NCBI GenBank assembly: GCA_030653545.1
Contig: JAURZE010000022.1
Location: 186,001 to 250,000, forward strand
Source of the DNA: Nitrospira sp.
GTDB taxonomy: Bacteria; Nitrospirota; Nitrospiria; Nitrospirales; Nitrospiraceae
Direction of reading: 5' to 3'
Length of the DNA stretch: 64,000 nucleotides
Shown here: piece by piece, positions 2,649 to 7,451 of the stretch
Numbering within the stretch: the first letter of the stretch is position 1
How the letters are laid out: each line of letters opens with the position of its first letter
Position numbers and translations under genes: made by a program
The notes under the pieces: model-generated
The model's database searches: none
Seen by the model: only the letters and a program-made list of their open reading frames with translations
What the model was told of the DNA's origin: nothing

Positions 2649-2766
2649 CCGTCTACCATGGTGAGTCCTTCGATCCTTGTTAATAGCTCGTGGGTGCCTT
2701 GAACCGGAGACCTTGGCAAAACACGATGAATCTTGAGCAAGAGTACTCGCCGGCCCATTACGGTCA

Positions 2767-2795
2767 GGTCACGGATATGTAAACGACTCGTTAAT
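2767..2795 (-). promoter_or_regulatory. Candidate PhoB box upstream of pstS
   Basis: On the minus strand three 7-mers repeat at an exact 11-bp period: ATTAACG, GTTTACA and CGTGACC, separated by 4 bp. A fourth weaker unit (CGTAATG) follows in phase. Direct 7-bp repeats spaced by 4 bp are the known layout of PhoB sites. The same unit order appears in two other sites in this window. A weak -10-like AGTACT lies about 19 bp downstream. Confidence 0.6.
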
Positions 2796-2906
2796 TCTGA
2801 AGGGGAAATGCACGCTGACGCTCACGGCTAAGGGGGGGCACTATTCCATCTTTACCGTAACGCCATTCGAATAGGAACGATGGAGCATACAGCTTTCTTC
2901 TGAAAA

Positions 2907-2935
2907 CTTAACATGGATGTAACATGACCGTTACC
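2907..2935 (+). promoter_or_regulatory. Candidate PhoB box upstream of the second PstS-like gene
   Basis: Three 7-mers at an exact 11-bp period: CTTAACA (2907-2913), TGTAACA (2918-2924) and CGTTACC (2929-2935). An ATATAG -10-like hexamer at 2955-2960 starts 19 bp past the last unit, as expected where the PhoB box replaces the -35 element. The gene starts at 3012. This is the cleanest of the three sites. Confidence 0.72.
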
Positions 2936-3011
2936 GGTCCGACACGTGCCATTCATATAGTCCGGTACAGGCGACTTGAATGATTCGAGGGCTTAACCAA
3001 GGAGGAGTGGC

Positions 3012-4115
3012 GTGAGACTAGCAGGGACATCGGCTCGATGGATGGTCGTAAGTAGCAGTCTGGCGTTATTCGCCACCGTATCACTGGCACAGGCGGAGGT
3101 CTCTACGATCCACGCAACCCCGGTCGTCGATTCGGGCATCGCGTCGTACGTCCCGAAAACCGGAGTGTCCGGAGGCATCGCGATCGCGGGATCCGACACC
3201 ATGCAGCCGATCATAGCCAAAGTGGCGTCAGCCTTCCGGCTCTGGCAGCCCAAAATCACGGTAGCCGTTCAAGGGGGCGGATCCTATTCCGCACTCGGCC
3301 AGTTTCTCCAGGATCAGCCCACCATTCGCCGAGGAGATGCCAACCCGAAAGGCCATCTGGTAACAGGGCACGTCGGTCTCCTCGCATCCTCTCGTCCGCT
3401 GAACTCGGACGAACGGAAAGAGTTTCGGTCACGGTACGGTTTCGACGTGACGGAAGTACCGATTGCACTCGATGCGATCGCCATTTACGTGAACCATCAA
3501 AATCCCATTCAAGGCCTGACCCTGGAGCAGGTTGATGCCATCTTCGGGCAGTCTAGAAAACGCGGCGGCGCTGCCGACATCGGAATGTGGGGGCAACTCG
3601 GCTTGCAGGACGGGTGGGAGTCTCAACCCATTCGCCTCTACGGACGAGATAAGCGATCCGGCACCAGAAGCTTCTTTGTCCATACCGCGCTCCTCGATGG
3701 AGAGTTGAAAGGAACGCTCCACGAGTCGCCTGGCACGGCCATGGAAATCCTGGACCTTAGCCGCGATGCGGCCGGGATCGGCTATGCCGGGATCGGCTTC
3801 CAGGCCTCGACCGTGCGCGTCCTCCCGATCGCCGAAAAATCGGAAAGCCCCTTCGTGCTCCCGACGGCGGAGGCGGCAGTCAATGGCTCCTATCCGTTGT
3901 CCCGGCCGCTGTATCTGTATGCGAAACGGAGTCCAAAAGGCGAGTTGGACGAAGAGATCGCCGAGTTTCTGAAATTCATCAACAGCCGGGAAGGGCAGGA
4001 AGCAATCGCAAAAGCGGGAGCTTTCCCCCTTTCAGCCAACCAAGTCACCACCAATCTCCAAGCACTCGTCGGGGCGCCCATGTCAGCCTCCACTCTGACG
4101 GCGTCCACCAGGTAG
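3012..4115 (+). CDS. Second PstS-like phosphate-binding protein
   Basis: A 367-residue exported solute-binding protein. The signal peptide covers about residues 1-28 (hydrophobic SSSLALFATVSLAQA). A PBP-like domain of the PstS type follows: the phosphate loop is IAGSDTMQPII near residue 58, a second is RDKRSGTRSFFVH, and NGSYPLSRPLYLYAK is the conserved C-lobe segment. The start is GTG, chosen because GGAGGAG at 3001-3007 is ideally placed. It is transcribed divergently from pstSCA and has its own candidate PhoB box. It may be a second affinity class of phosphate-binding protein, or a sensor or scavenging protein. The sequence does not tell which. A hairpin terminator follows at once, so it is probably monocistronic. 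Confidence 0.88.
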   Translation: MRLAGTSARWMVVSSSLALFATVSLAQAEVSTIHATPVVDSGIASYVPKTGVSGGIAIAGSDTMQPIIAKVASAFRLWQPKITVAVQGGGSYSALGQFLQDQPTIRRGDANPKGHLVTGHVGLLASSRPLNSDERKEFRSRYGFDVTEVPIALDAIAIYVNHQNPIQGLTLEQVDAIFGQSRKRGGAADIGMWGQLGLQDGWESQPIRLYGRDKRSGTRSFFVHTALLDGELKGTLHESPGTAMEILDLSRDAAGIGYAGIGFQASTVRVLPIAEKSESPFVLPTAEAAVNGSYPLSRPLYLYAKRSPKGELDEEIAEFLKFINSREGQEAIAKAGAFPLSANQVTTNLQALVGAPMSASTLTASTR

Positions 4116-4130
4116 CACGCAGCTACCGCT

Positions 4131-4170
4131 GCCTCGCCGGAGGCTCCACTCTTCCGGCGAGGCTTCTTTC
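4131..4170 (+). terminator. Rho-independent terminator after the PstS-like gene
   Basis: An 11-bp perfect stem (GCCTCGCCGGA at 4131-4141, its complement at 4153-4163) with an 11-nt loop is followed by a T-rich tract (TTCTTT). It lies 16 bp after the stop codon. Confidence 0.8.
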
Positions 4171-4221
4171 CGCTCACATCCTTTGCTACACTGCCGCTCT
4201 CATATCCAGGAGTTTCTCAAC

Positions 4222-4887
4222 ATGACACACCGACCGTTCGCCAGGCTTCTTCTGGCCGTCTTCGCCCTGTCTGCGGCCGGATGCCTCGCCACACCGCAGC
4301 CGATCGTCATATCCGAAACGCCCGGGCAGGTCGTCGAGGTCCGCTACGACGCGAAGGCGGGAAACGGGCATAGTCATCCGCGCGCACTCACCATTTCCCA
4401 GATCACGTCCATTCTCAAGGGAGTCCAGGTCCACGACCGCGATCTGGTCGGGACCGCTGGCTTATTGATGGGGTCCGACGCCGTTCCCGCGTTTACTGAT
4501 AAGGATGTGGCCGCGCTGGCCCCGCATCTGGTCGCCGGACTGGCGAAGGCTTCCCCGGTTGATCTGGTCAGCTTTTACCTGGCGCAACGAGGCAGCAATC
4601 GCGCGCCGCTGATCACCTCAGGCGGAGTCTTTATTCGCAATCAGCGCCTGTATCTGATTCTCGCCAATGCCCGAACTTCACCAAGCTCTATTCAATACGA
4701 AAATACCTACGAGACCAACAGTCTGAGCAATCCGTTGCTGCCAATCGCCCGTTTCAAGTTTGTGGCGGGGTTCGTCCCGGCCGATTGGCGGGTGGTGACG
4801 TCCGACGCCAAACGGCAGGATGAGTGGGACGGGTTTCTGGATGAATCGAAGGTCGTTGTGATCGACTTGGCCCGCGTCACGCCCTAA
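4222..4887 (+). CDS. Putative lipoprotein of unknown function
   Basis: A protein of about 221 residues starting at the ATG at 4222, placed 9 bp after an AGGAG ribosome-binding site. A longer frame exists but has no binding site. The N-terminus is a lipoprotein signal: a basic lead, a hydrophobic stretch and the lipobox SAAGC near residue 20. The mature protein has no motif I recognise. It carries LTISQITSILKGVQVHDRD and a C-terminal stretch with Trp-Arg. It sits between the PstS-like gene and a carbonic anhydrase gene on the other strand, but the terminator before it argues for independent transcription. The mature part should be anchored to an outer- or inner-membrane leaflet. Confidence 0.7.
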   Translation: MTHRPFARLLLAVFALSAAGCLATPQPIVISETPGQVVEVRYDAKAGNGHSHPRALTISQITSILKGVQVHDRDLVGTAGLLMGSDAVPAFTDKDVAALAPHLVAGLAKASPVDLVSFYLAQRGSNRAPLITSGGVFIRNQRLYLILANARTSPSSIQYENTYETNSLSNPLLPIARFKFVAGFVPADWRVVTSDAKRQDEWDGFLDESKVVVIDLARVTP

Positions 4888-5017
4888 TCCGCCTGATTCA
4901 GAAGCGCTGCCGCGATCGCGCCTCTCCATAGGCATGAGGCATGGGGCCAGAGGTTAGGGGTGGGAGCTATGCGTACGATCTTCCCACTCGCCTCGGACCA
5001 CGAGCCTCTCGCCAGGA

Positions 5018-5704
5018 TTACCGGCTGATGGCGACGGGCTGAGGCGCTTCGGCGAACTGAATATTCACTCGCACGACACCGGCGTTCAAATTCCGGTAGG
5101 GATAATCCTGGGTAATCTTTGGAAGCGCGTCGGCCTCCGCCTGAGTCTTGACAATAGAGAGTGCCGGCACATAGCGGCCCGAGGCCACCTTTACCCCGAT
5201 GAGCTTGGCTCCCGGTTCGATCACCACGTGGTCGCCGATTTCCGTCTGAAACACCAGCGCCTGCATGCCGACGAAAGTGTCATCGCCGACCTTGGCCGGT
5301 CCATGGACTTGCGACTGATGCGCCAGGGACACGCGATCGCCGATATAGACCGAATATTTCTTTCCGTCGAATTCGACTTCATTCTCCGGCAACTCATGAT
5401 CGCCTTCGAACGTTTCCAACCCGTGCACCACGACACCGTCCTGCACATTGCTTTGATTGCCGATGTGAATATGCTGTCCTTCATCGCCGCGCACGGACGC
5501 AGCCGGTGCGACAAACACCTGATCGCCAAGGCTGACCGAACCGATCACCATGGCCAGGGGATGGATGCGCGTATGCGTTCCGATCACCGGCGCTTCGACG
5601 GACGGCATGAAAGTGGTCTTGACGCTGGGCCCCACATAGCCGACCAGCAACAGACTCACCCCGATGAGATTCAGACTCAACGAACAGGCCAGTAATCGAT
5701 TCAC
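5018..5704 (-). CDS. cam: Exported gamma-class carbonic anhydrase (Cam type)
   Basis: A 228-residue protein with an N-terminal signal or anchor segment (residues about 4-25) and a left-handed beta-helix. It would interconvert CO2 and bicarbonate outside the cytoplasm. It keeps the full Cam active site rather than only the fold: zinc-ligand histidines in VVHGLE (His94) and LAHQSQVHG (His129, His134), Arg72 and Glu75 in the VRGDEG segment, and Glu97 beside the first His. It also keeps the acidic loop (residues about 98-118) that separates true Cam enzymes from short CamH or CaiE-like relatives. GTG start 7 bp after AAAGGAG. It lies downstream of the porin gene on the same strand, separated by a strong hairpin. 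Confidence 0.88.
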   Translation of the reverse strand: MNRLLACSLSLNLIGVSLLLVGYVGPSVKTTFMPSVEAPVIGTHTRIHPLAMVIGSVSLGDQVFVAPAASVRGDEGQHIHIGNQSNVQDGVVVHGLETFEGDHELPENEVEFDGKKYSVYIGDRVSLAHQSQVHGPAKVGDDTFVGMQALVFQTEIGDHVVIEPGAKLIGVKVASGRYVPALSIVKTQAEADALPKITQDYPYRNLNAGVVRVNIQFAEAPQPVAISR

Positions 5705-5741
5705 AATGACTCCTTTGGAGGCAACAATGTGAGGAACACAG

Positions 5742-5772
5742 GAGTCCGTCGGCTCATCTAGCCGACGGACTC
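5742..5772 (-). terminator. Strong hairpin between porin and carbonic anhydrase genes
   Basis: A perfect 12-bp inverted repeat (GAGTCCGTCGGC at 5742-5753 and its complement at 5761-5772) with a 7-nt loop. It lies between the porin stop and the carbonic anhydrase start. It lacks a clear U-tract on the minus strand, so it may be a weak terminator or an mRNA-stabilising structure. Confidence 0.5.
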
Positions 5773-5834
5773 GGTGCCACTTTTATCAGTATCGCAGGAA
5801 TCAGGGCAATCGACAATGCCCAGTTCGAGGGGGC

Positions 5835-7316
5835 TTAGTTCCAGAACCAGACCGCTTGCAAGCGGACGAGGTGACCGTCTGCGTCGAACTGCCGGCCGCC
5901 GGACGTACTGAACGTGTTGCGCCGATCCATCCAGGCATGGGCCACGGTGAATTCCCACTGGGGATCCGGCTGCCAGGCGATACCGGTTTCGACTTCTTTC
6001 ATCTTGTCATCCGGCGCGCCTGTCTGGAATTTCAGGCCGCCTTGATATTGCTGATAGCGGGAGTAGAAGTTGGCAAGTCCCACATCGGAGTATTTCCACT
6101 GATAGTGAAGTTGAACATAGCCGCCGTCGAGCTTGCTGTCGCGGATGATCCCGTCAAGCCCGCGCTTCGGACCCCGGCCGGTGGTGTATTCCGCAATAAA
6201 CCCGAACGGCTGCGGCGGGAAATACACGTAGAAGTTCACTCGCTGGTCCATATAGTCTTTGCCGTTGCTTCCCGATGTCGCCCCGTCGAAGTTCGACCCG
6301 AGGGTGGCAAACTGCGACGTCGTATTCAAGGTCCCGTTGCTCACGCGAAATTTTCCGCTCATGGCATTGATACCGGTTTCCATCAGCCGCCCGCCGGGCA
6401 GTTCCCAGGGCCAGCTCAACCGGGCACCGATGTGTTTATTGCCGTTCGCTTCCTGTTGATTCAACCCTTGACCGTTATAGATCTGAATATGGAACACCCC
6501 GTAGTCGCCGGGGCCGTACATATAGTCGAGCATCTGCTTGTAGCGCTGCTGGGCGATTTTGGGCGACCACATAAAGGCGACGCCCATATCGCGCTCGCTC
6601 GTCGCACAGCTATTGGTGCCGTCGGCCCGGTCAATGGCCATACGGACACGGCTGGCTTGCCAGTTGTCGAACGAGCAGGGAACGCGCTGCAAGCCGACCC
6701 GGAGCCGGAATTCCTTGTCCTTATCGAAATTCCAGTCGCCGAAGGCATCCCGCATCGAGAGCGCATGGGTGTTGCCGCTAATATTGGAGGCGAGATCTGG
6801 CTGGACAAAGACCGAGACATGCTCGGAGATCTGCCCGGTCACGACCCAGCGAATCCGGCGGAAAAAGAAACCTGGTTGGGCCCCGCTTGCCTGATCCCCC
6901 ATCGAGGCGTCGTGATAGCTGCGAAGCTTTCCGTCCGGATTTCCCAGCCGGTTGAACCGCATCATGCCATAACCGTACATCGAGAGGCGGTCATACCAGC
7001 GGGGGCTGCCGGTAAACTCCGCCACGACGGACCGCTCGCTCTGCCGGCGTTCATCTTCCGCCTTGATCCGGATCCAGTCGTCCAGGCTAATGACCCCTTT
7101 TTCGAGCAGGAGATCCTCCATCGACGTGCTTTCGAGGAGACGGGGGGTATTGCCTCCACCAGCGGGAAATCCCGCCGGCGTGGCGGAAGAAGCCCCGAGG
7201 GTGGGCTTCATCGCACCGTCTTCGGCCTGCCCTATCCCATTCGCAATCATCAGCAAACTCAGGGTGCCGACGACCATCCCCAGCAAGCCTTGTAGTGAAA
7301 TCCGTCTCCTTCGCAC
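5835..7316 (-). CDS. Phosphate-selective-type porin (OprP/OprO family)
   Basis: About 493 residues: a signal peptide with an RRRR lead and hydrophobic core, a linker with a short helix (LLLEKGVISLDDWIRIKAED) seen in this porin family, then a beta-barrel rich in alternating aromatic strands and ending in an aromatic-terminated strand (AVWFWN). It would pass anions such as phosphate through the outer membrane. I chose the GTG at 7316 because AGGGAGGA lies 5-6 bp upstream; an ATG 17 codons earlier has no such site. A candidate PhoB box about 107 bp upstream supports a role in phosphate uptake together with pstSCA. Ion selectivity cannot be read from the sequence. Confidence 0.85.
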   Translation of the reverse strand: MRRRRISLQGLLGMVVGTLSLLMIANGIGQAEDGAMKPTLGASSATPAGFPAGGGNTPRLLESTSMEDLLLEKGVISLDDWIRIKAEDERRQSERSVVAEFTGSPRWYDRLSMYGYGMMRFNRLGNPDGKLRSYHDASMGDQASGAQPGFFFRRIRWVVTGQISEHVSVFVQPDLASNISGNTHALSMRDAFGDWNFDKDKEFRLRVGLQRVPCSFDNWQASRVRMAIDRADGTNSCATSERDMGVAFMWSPKIAQQRYKQMLDYMYGPGDYGVFHIQIYNGQGLNQQEANGNKHIGARLSWPWELPGGRLMETGINAMSGKFRVSNGTLNTTSQFATLGSNFDGATSGSNGKDYMDQRVNFYVYFPPQPFGFIAEYTTGRGPKRGLDGIIRDSKLDGGYVQLHYQWKYSDVGLANFYSRYQQYQGGLKFQTGAPDDKMKEVETGIAWQPDPQWEFTVAHAWMDRRNTFSTSGGRQFDADGHLVRLQAVWFWN

Positions 7317-7422
7317 GCAGTCCTCCCTGGTTGGTGTGATCACGTTTGTCCTCAACGTCGATGCCATATCGTCAAGTACTCACTCTCTAGATCGTGAGTA
7401 TGAAGGGGGGCTGTGTCGAAAC

Positions 7423-7451
7423 GGTGACGGGATTGTTACAGACTTGTTAAC
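7423..7451 (-). promoter_or_regulatory. Candidate PhoB box upstream of the porin
   Basis: On the minus strand GTTAACA, TGTAACA and CGTCACC repeat at an exact 11-bp period. The first two match the site at 2907 in 13 of 14 bases and the third in 6 of 7. A CATACT -10-like hexamer (7398-7403) follows 19 bp after the last unit, the same geometry as at 2907. Confidence 0.72.

Follow-up and report, generated by a model that had tools for sequence, protein, structure and literature searches.

Results

The window, that is, the whole 64,000-nucleotide stretch of Nitrospira DNA analysed here, begins on the minus strand with pstA (2–700; TIGR00974, above cut-off), which is cut by the window edge, followed by pstC (657–1610; TIGR02138 equivalog, above cut-off) and pstS (1623–2648; TIGR02136 PstS family, 292.6 bits against a cut-off of 206.6). 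Beyond pstA and outside the window lie pstB (L011:18957-19799) and phoU (L011:18262-18939), giving the operon order pstS-C-A-B-phoU according to curated models. The plus strand encodes a second PstS-like substrate-binding protein (3012–4115; PBP_like_2), which scores 184.5 bits with TIGR02136, below the cut-off of 206.6, so that its ligand is not certain and may be another anion; most of the genomes that contain relatives of this protein bear the name Nitrospira or Nitrospiraceae. Downstream of this gene follows a putative lipoprotein of no known family (4183–4887, plus strand). Lipoproteins without a known Pfam family recur beside clusters of PstS-like and porin genes in relatives (L014:8112-8846, L062:9956-10672, L065:11402-12148 and L068:7316-8023), and most of the copies read contain an HSHP motif. 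A porin of the phosphate-selective O/P family is encoded further on (5835–7367, minus strand; PF07396).

Three of these genes are each associated with a predicted Pho box. The pstS box (2756–2795, minus strand) is composed of the units ATTAACG (2795–2789), GTTTACA (2784–2778), CGTGACC (2773–2767) and CGTAATG (2762–2756), the box of the second pstS-like gene (2907–2946, plus strand) of CTTAACA, TGTAACA, CGTTACC and CGACACG, and the porin box (7412–7451, minus strand) of GTTAACA, TGTAACA, CGTCACC and CGACACA. With their linkers, the first three units read ATTAACG-agtc-GTTTACA-tatc-CGTGACC at pstS (2795–2767, minus), CTTAACA-tgga-TGTAACA-tgac-CGTTACC at the second pstS-like gene (2907–2935, plus) and GTTAACA-agtc-TGTAACA-atcc-CGTCACC at the porin gene (7451–7423, minus). 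The sequence-only reading had described these stretches, on these strands, as three 7-mers at an exact 11-bp period, which a read of the sequence confirms.

A joint pattern of the three sites, TTAACRN6TWACAN4CGTNACC, has three perfect matches in the 3.94-Mb genome, and these are the three window sites. Base composition predicts 1.7e-5 matches per window and 0.001 per genome, and 24 Mb of Markov-1 simulated sequence yielded none. As the pattern was derived from the window sites themselves, the independent test is a model trained on other species. This sequence-only model was built from 59 sites of other species and none from this genome, the training sites having been collected with a pattern derived from the sites in the window. 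Within the window it ranked the three sites at E values of about 1e-6, with no other match below 0.1; the pstS box scores 25.9 bits, with an E value of 5e-7 in the window. The three sites are almost certainly Pho boxes.

When sites from relatives were aligned on unit 1, four conserved blocks appeared instead of three. In a register test, a matrix pooled from units 1–3 was slid along the flanks of 58 non-redundant relative sites; it peaked at offsets 0, 11, 22 and 33 (z 22, 22, 18 and 10), with no further 11-bp position of comparable strength. Since unit 4 lay outside the search pattern, its peak at offset 33 constitutes independent evidence. At offset 49, TA is present in 93% of the 58 sites, compared to at most 16% elsewhere, and was likewise absent from the search pattern; the fuller TAnnnT occurs there in 55% of sites, compared to 0.7% elsewhere, which places the -10 element nine bases past unit 4. 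In the window, the box of the second pstS-like gene has TATAGT (2956–2961, plus strand) at offset 49, in the register taken from the 58 relatives, and the porin box has the -10-like CATACT (7397–7402, minus strand), also at offset 49. Hexamers had been noted at these two sites before, 19 bp past the last unit; they are indeed present, but follow unit 3 at a spacing of 20 bp. The pstS site also has a -10-like hexamer, TACTCT (2740–2745, minus strand), one base further away than at the other two sites, at offset 50 from unit 1 instead of the usual 49. The earlier description of a shared three-unit architecture therefore holds for three units at an 11-bp period, but was incomplete, as the relatives show four units and a fixed -10.

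The sites display what is expected of a Pho box, namely at least two direct-repeat units of seven conserved and four less conserved bases at an 11-bp period, and a TAnnnT -10 about 10 bp downstream in place of a -35 element, exact at 2907, in the form CATACT at 7423 and one base off at 2767. This is the arrangement of the published E. coli rule, by which a TAN3T -10 follows the boxes at a distance of about 10 bp (PMC1906773). The E. coli pstS promoter, as read from the genome record, has two tandem Pho boxes, that is, four units (CTGTCAT, CTGTCAT, CTTACAT and CTGTCAC), and resembles the Nitrospira sites in the 11-bp period, the position upstream of pstS and a -10 (TATTTT) at offset 49. It differs in sequence, with CTGTCAT where the Nitrospira units have TTAACA/TGTAACA; the sites do not conform to the narrow E. 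coli-type consensus CTGTCAT, and the Nitrospira model fails to recognise the E. coli pstS site, giving 1.4 bits at best. However, Pho-box consensus sequences vary between species (PMC4415409), so that CTGTCAT does not define the wider class. The Streptomyces PhoP box, with GTTCACC direct repeats of 11 nt (PMC4415409), likewise agrees in period and direct-repeat layout but not in unit sequence.

The cyanobacterial SphR/PhoB box, which consists of three 8-bp repeats CTTAACCT with 3-bp linkers (PMC1906773), shares the 11-bp period and the TTAAC core, TTAACA/TGTAACA being near CTTAACCT, but in the Nitrospira sites the units number four and their sequence is graded. SphR binds at least three such repeats (PMC1906773), and unit 4 is the most degenerate of the Nitrospira units (GGAAYG, CTTAACG); one could thus imagine that three units form the functional operator, as in cyanobacteria, and that the fourth block is a sigma contact rather than a PhoB half-site. 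We consider this improbable, as unit 4 keeps the exact 11-bp phase and fits the pooled unit matrix with a z of about 10, and the E. coli pstS promoter likewise combines four units with an identical -10 offset.

The third unit, CGTnACC, had been proposed as a lineage-specific operator form. Among relatives, its general form is nGTnACn, and CGTnACC occurs in only 23 of 101 sites, mostly at psiE, a share that is, if anything, lower in truth, since the search pattern itself favoured CGTNACC. These counts do not support a special third unit. The lineage-specific part is the overall TTAACA/TGTAACA sequence, which is common to several Nitrospirota families.

Scanning the whole genome with the other-species model gave seven matches at E values of at most 10. 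The four best precede pstS (3.2e-5), the porin gene (5.2e-5), a CBS-psiE pair (C22:182514, 1.5e-4) and the second pstS-like gene (2.3e-4). A match at C9:36924 (E 0.13) precedes a cluster of a third PstS-like protein, a lipoprotein and a porin, and one at C9:28660 (E 0.44) has box units 1 and 2 some 130 bp ahead of the likely ppk1 start, so that ppk1 is probably controlled by the same box. The seventh, at C9:27079 (E 0.11), is weak and precedes a lipoprotein that by eye resembles the OmpA/Pal type. Across the genome, boxes thus lie upstream of phosphate-starvation genes. The expectation that a genome-wide scan would lead to pho genes was borne out for ppk1, the CBS-psiE pair and the third pstS-like cluster, but not for phoBR: the scan gave no box at the PhoB-PhoR-like regulator-kinase pair on contig C24. 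Autoregulation of phoB is known from E. coli; at the C24 pair, it is either absent or undetected. Matches at C9:53168 and C9:55351 (TTAACGATTCGTTAACACAAACTTGAGC and similar) were rejected as Pho boxes, as they fall within an exopolysaccharide/exosortase-like locus, obtain poor scores from the full model and represent a different motif. At these two loci (L004, L009), TTAACGATTCGTTAACACAAACTTGAGC and a relative of it form a repeated motif upstream of exopolysaccharide/exosortase-like genes, and 28 bp of the C9:53168 motif recur unchanged in three further genomes of the genus (G014, G023 and G068).

A pattern search of 79 genomes of the genus found matches in 69. With two mismatches allowed, the real pattern gave 163 matches in these 79 genomes and a reversed control 85, so that single loose matches are not trustworthy alone. 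Sorted by downstream gene, the 126 distinct sites in relatives comprise 27+7 at porins, 19+17+14 at PstS-like genes, 23 at PsiE, one at a CBS protein and 18 at others; for 107 of the 126 matches, the gene downstream is pstS-like, an O/P-porin gene or psiE. The identity of PsiE in the relatives was confirmed with the Pfam model, and as Pho control of psiE is established in E. coli (PMC4415409), the box marks phosphate genes that were invisible to the sequence-only reading. At the family level, 90 of 117 genomes, representing 17 of 22 genera, contain sites recognised by the model, and so do 48 of 118 genomes drawn from the phylum, several of them from other families, with the site often beside pstS; the form is thus not confined to the genus. 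Together, the genome-wide scan and the relatives lend strong support to the proposal that PhoB boxes join pstS, the second PstS-like gene and the O/P-type porin into one predicted phosphate regulon.

In relatives L058, L059 and L073, the psiE box lies between psiE and a divergent gene for a SixA-like phosphatase, and in relatives the psiE box is found near Ppx (L058) or ppk1 (L059 and L072), a polyphosphate gene neighbourhood. Matches to TTAACGTACAATTTGC(C/T)CGTCCGTCACC in relatives were set aside as likely coding conservation; the one in L077 lies inside a 606-aa open frame, and L131 has the same sequence.

The genome encodes five OmpR-type DNA-binding domains. Two full-length PhoB-type regulators are present, one on C24, followed by a PhoR/WalK-like kinase, and an orphan on C9; they score 247 and 243, respectively, with the TIGR02154 PhoB equivalog model, both below the cut-off of 296, and the nearest solved relative is RegX3. 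TIGR02154 is the best match of the C24 regulator, and its kinase matches the WalK, PnpS and PhoR models below cut-off. The probable reader of the boxes is the PhoB-type protein on C24, together with the kinase next to it.

C9 also holds an atypical PhoB-type regulator (C9:36110-36826 in this genome, G000; L014:6107-6826, L200; orthologues L201-L210) with an OmpR-type DNA-binding domain and no match to the Response_reg receiver model. The acidic pair and the lysine are missing from its receiver, and six of 11 orthologues have glutamate in place of the phospho-aspartate; comparable atypical regulators, such as ChxR and HP1043, are known from other systems. The gene is divergent from the third pstS-like gene, a pair common to 11 species including the present one, and a Pho-box-like site lies between the two in each of them (matrix score 19.6 to 34.2). 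With five OmpR-type domains to choose from, and with this regulator divergent from a Pho-boxed pstS-like gene here and in ten other species, it could be argued that another OmpR-family regulator, such as this one, binds the boxes in place of a canonical PhoB. This is very unlikely, however: high-identity copies of the atypical regulator were detected in only 11 of 39 genomes of the genus, whereas most of the genus and also other families have the box, and the regulator's recognition helix, ALDVHIHSLRHK, is unlike the PhoB-type TVDVHIRRLKQK.

Discussion

We are confident in regarding the three sites as PhoB operator-promoters, in which two tandem Pho boxes, that is, four units at an 11-bp period, are coupled to a sigma-70 -10 element with no -35. 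Single loose matches are often due to chance, as the reversed control illustrates, but accidental resemblance among AT-rich direct repeats, in a genome that is richer in GC, can practically be dismissed for these sites, given an expectation of 0.001 exact matches per genome, the same gene families downstream in many species and the appearance of a fourth unit and a -10 that had not been searched for, a cross-species result that refutes it.

For the operation of these promoters, we propose that phosphate starvation would lead a PhoR-like kinase to phosphorylate a PhoB-family regulator, probably within the C24 pair. The anatomy of the sites suggests that two PhoB dimers would then bind head to tail across the four units, and that the promoter-proximal dimers, positioned over the -35 region, would recruit sigma-70, with the -10 nine bp past unit 4. 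This corresponds to the E. coli model, in which PhoB dimers recruit sigma-70 at promoters that have no -35 (PMC3348028, PMC4415409). pstSCAB-phoU, the second PstS-like protein with its lipoprotein and the O/P-type porin would in this way be switched on together when phosphate is limiting, and the same box would control CBS-psiE, the third pstS-like/porin cluster and probably ppk1. As a tentative extension of this scheme, Nitrospira may possess a second, phosphorylation-independent layer of phosphate control, in which the degenerate-receiver regulator would use these four-unit operators or related ones.

In soils and wastewater, nitrite is oxidised mainly by Nitrospira. A literature search of open-licence PMC papers found no description of a Pho box and no paper on Pho control in this genus. 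The sites described here provide a usable operator model for the phylum and a predicted regulon, comprising pst, PstS-like proteins, O/P porins, PsiE and ppk1. They also show that a distant phylum has kept the geometry of E. coli pstS, with its four units and fixed -10, despite the changed bases.
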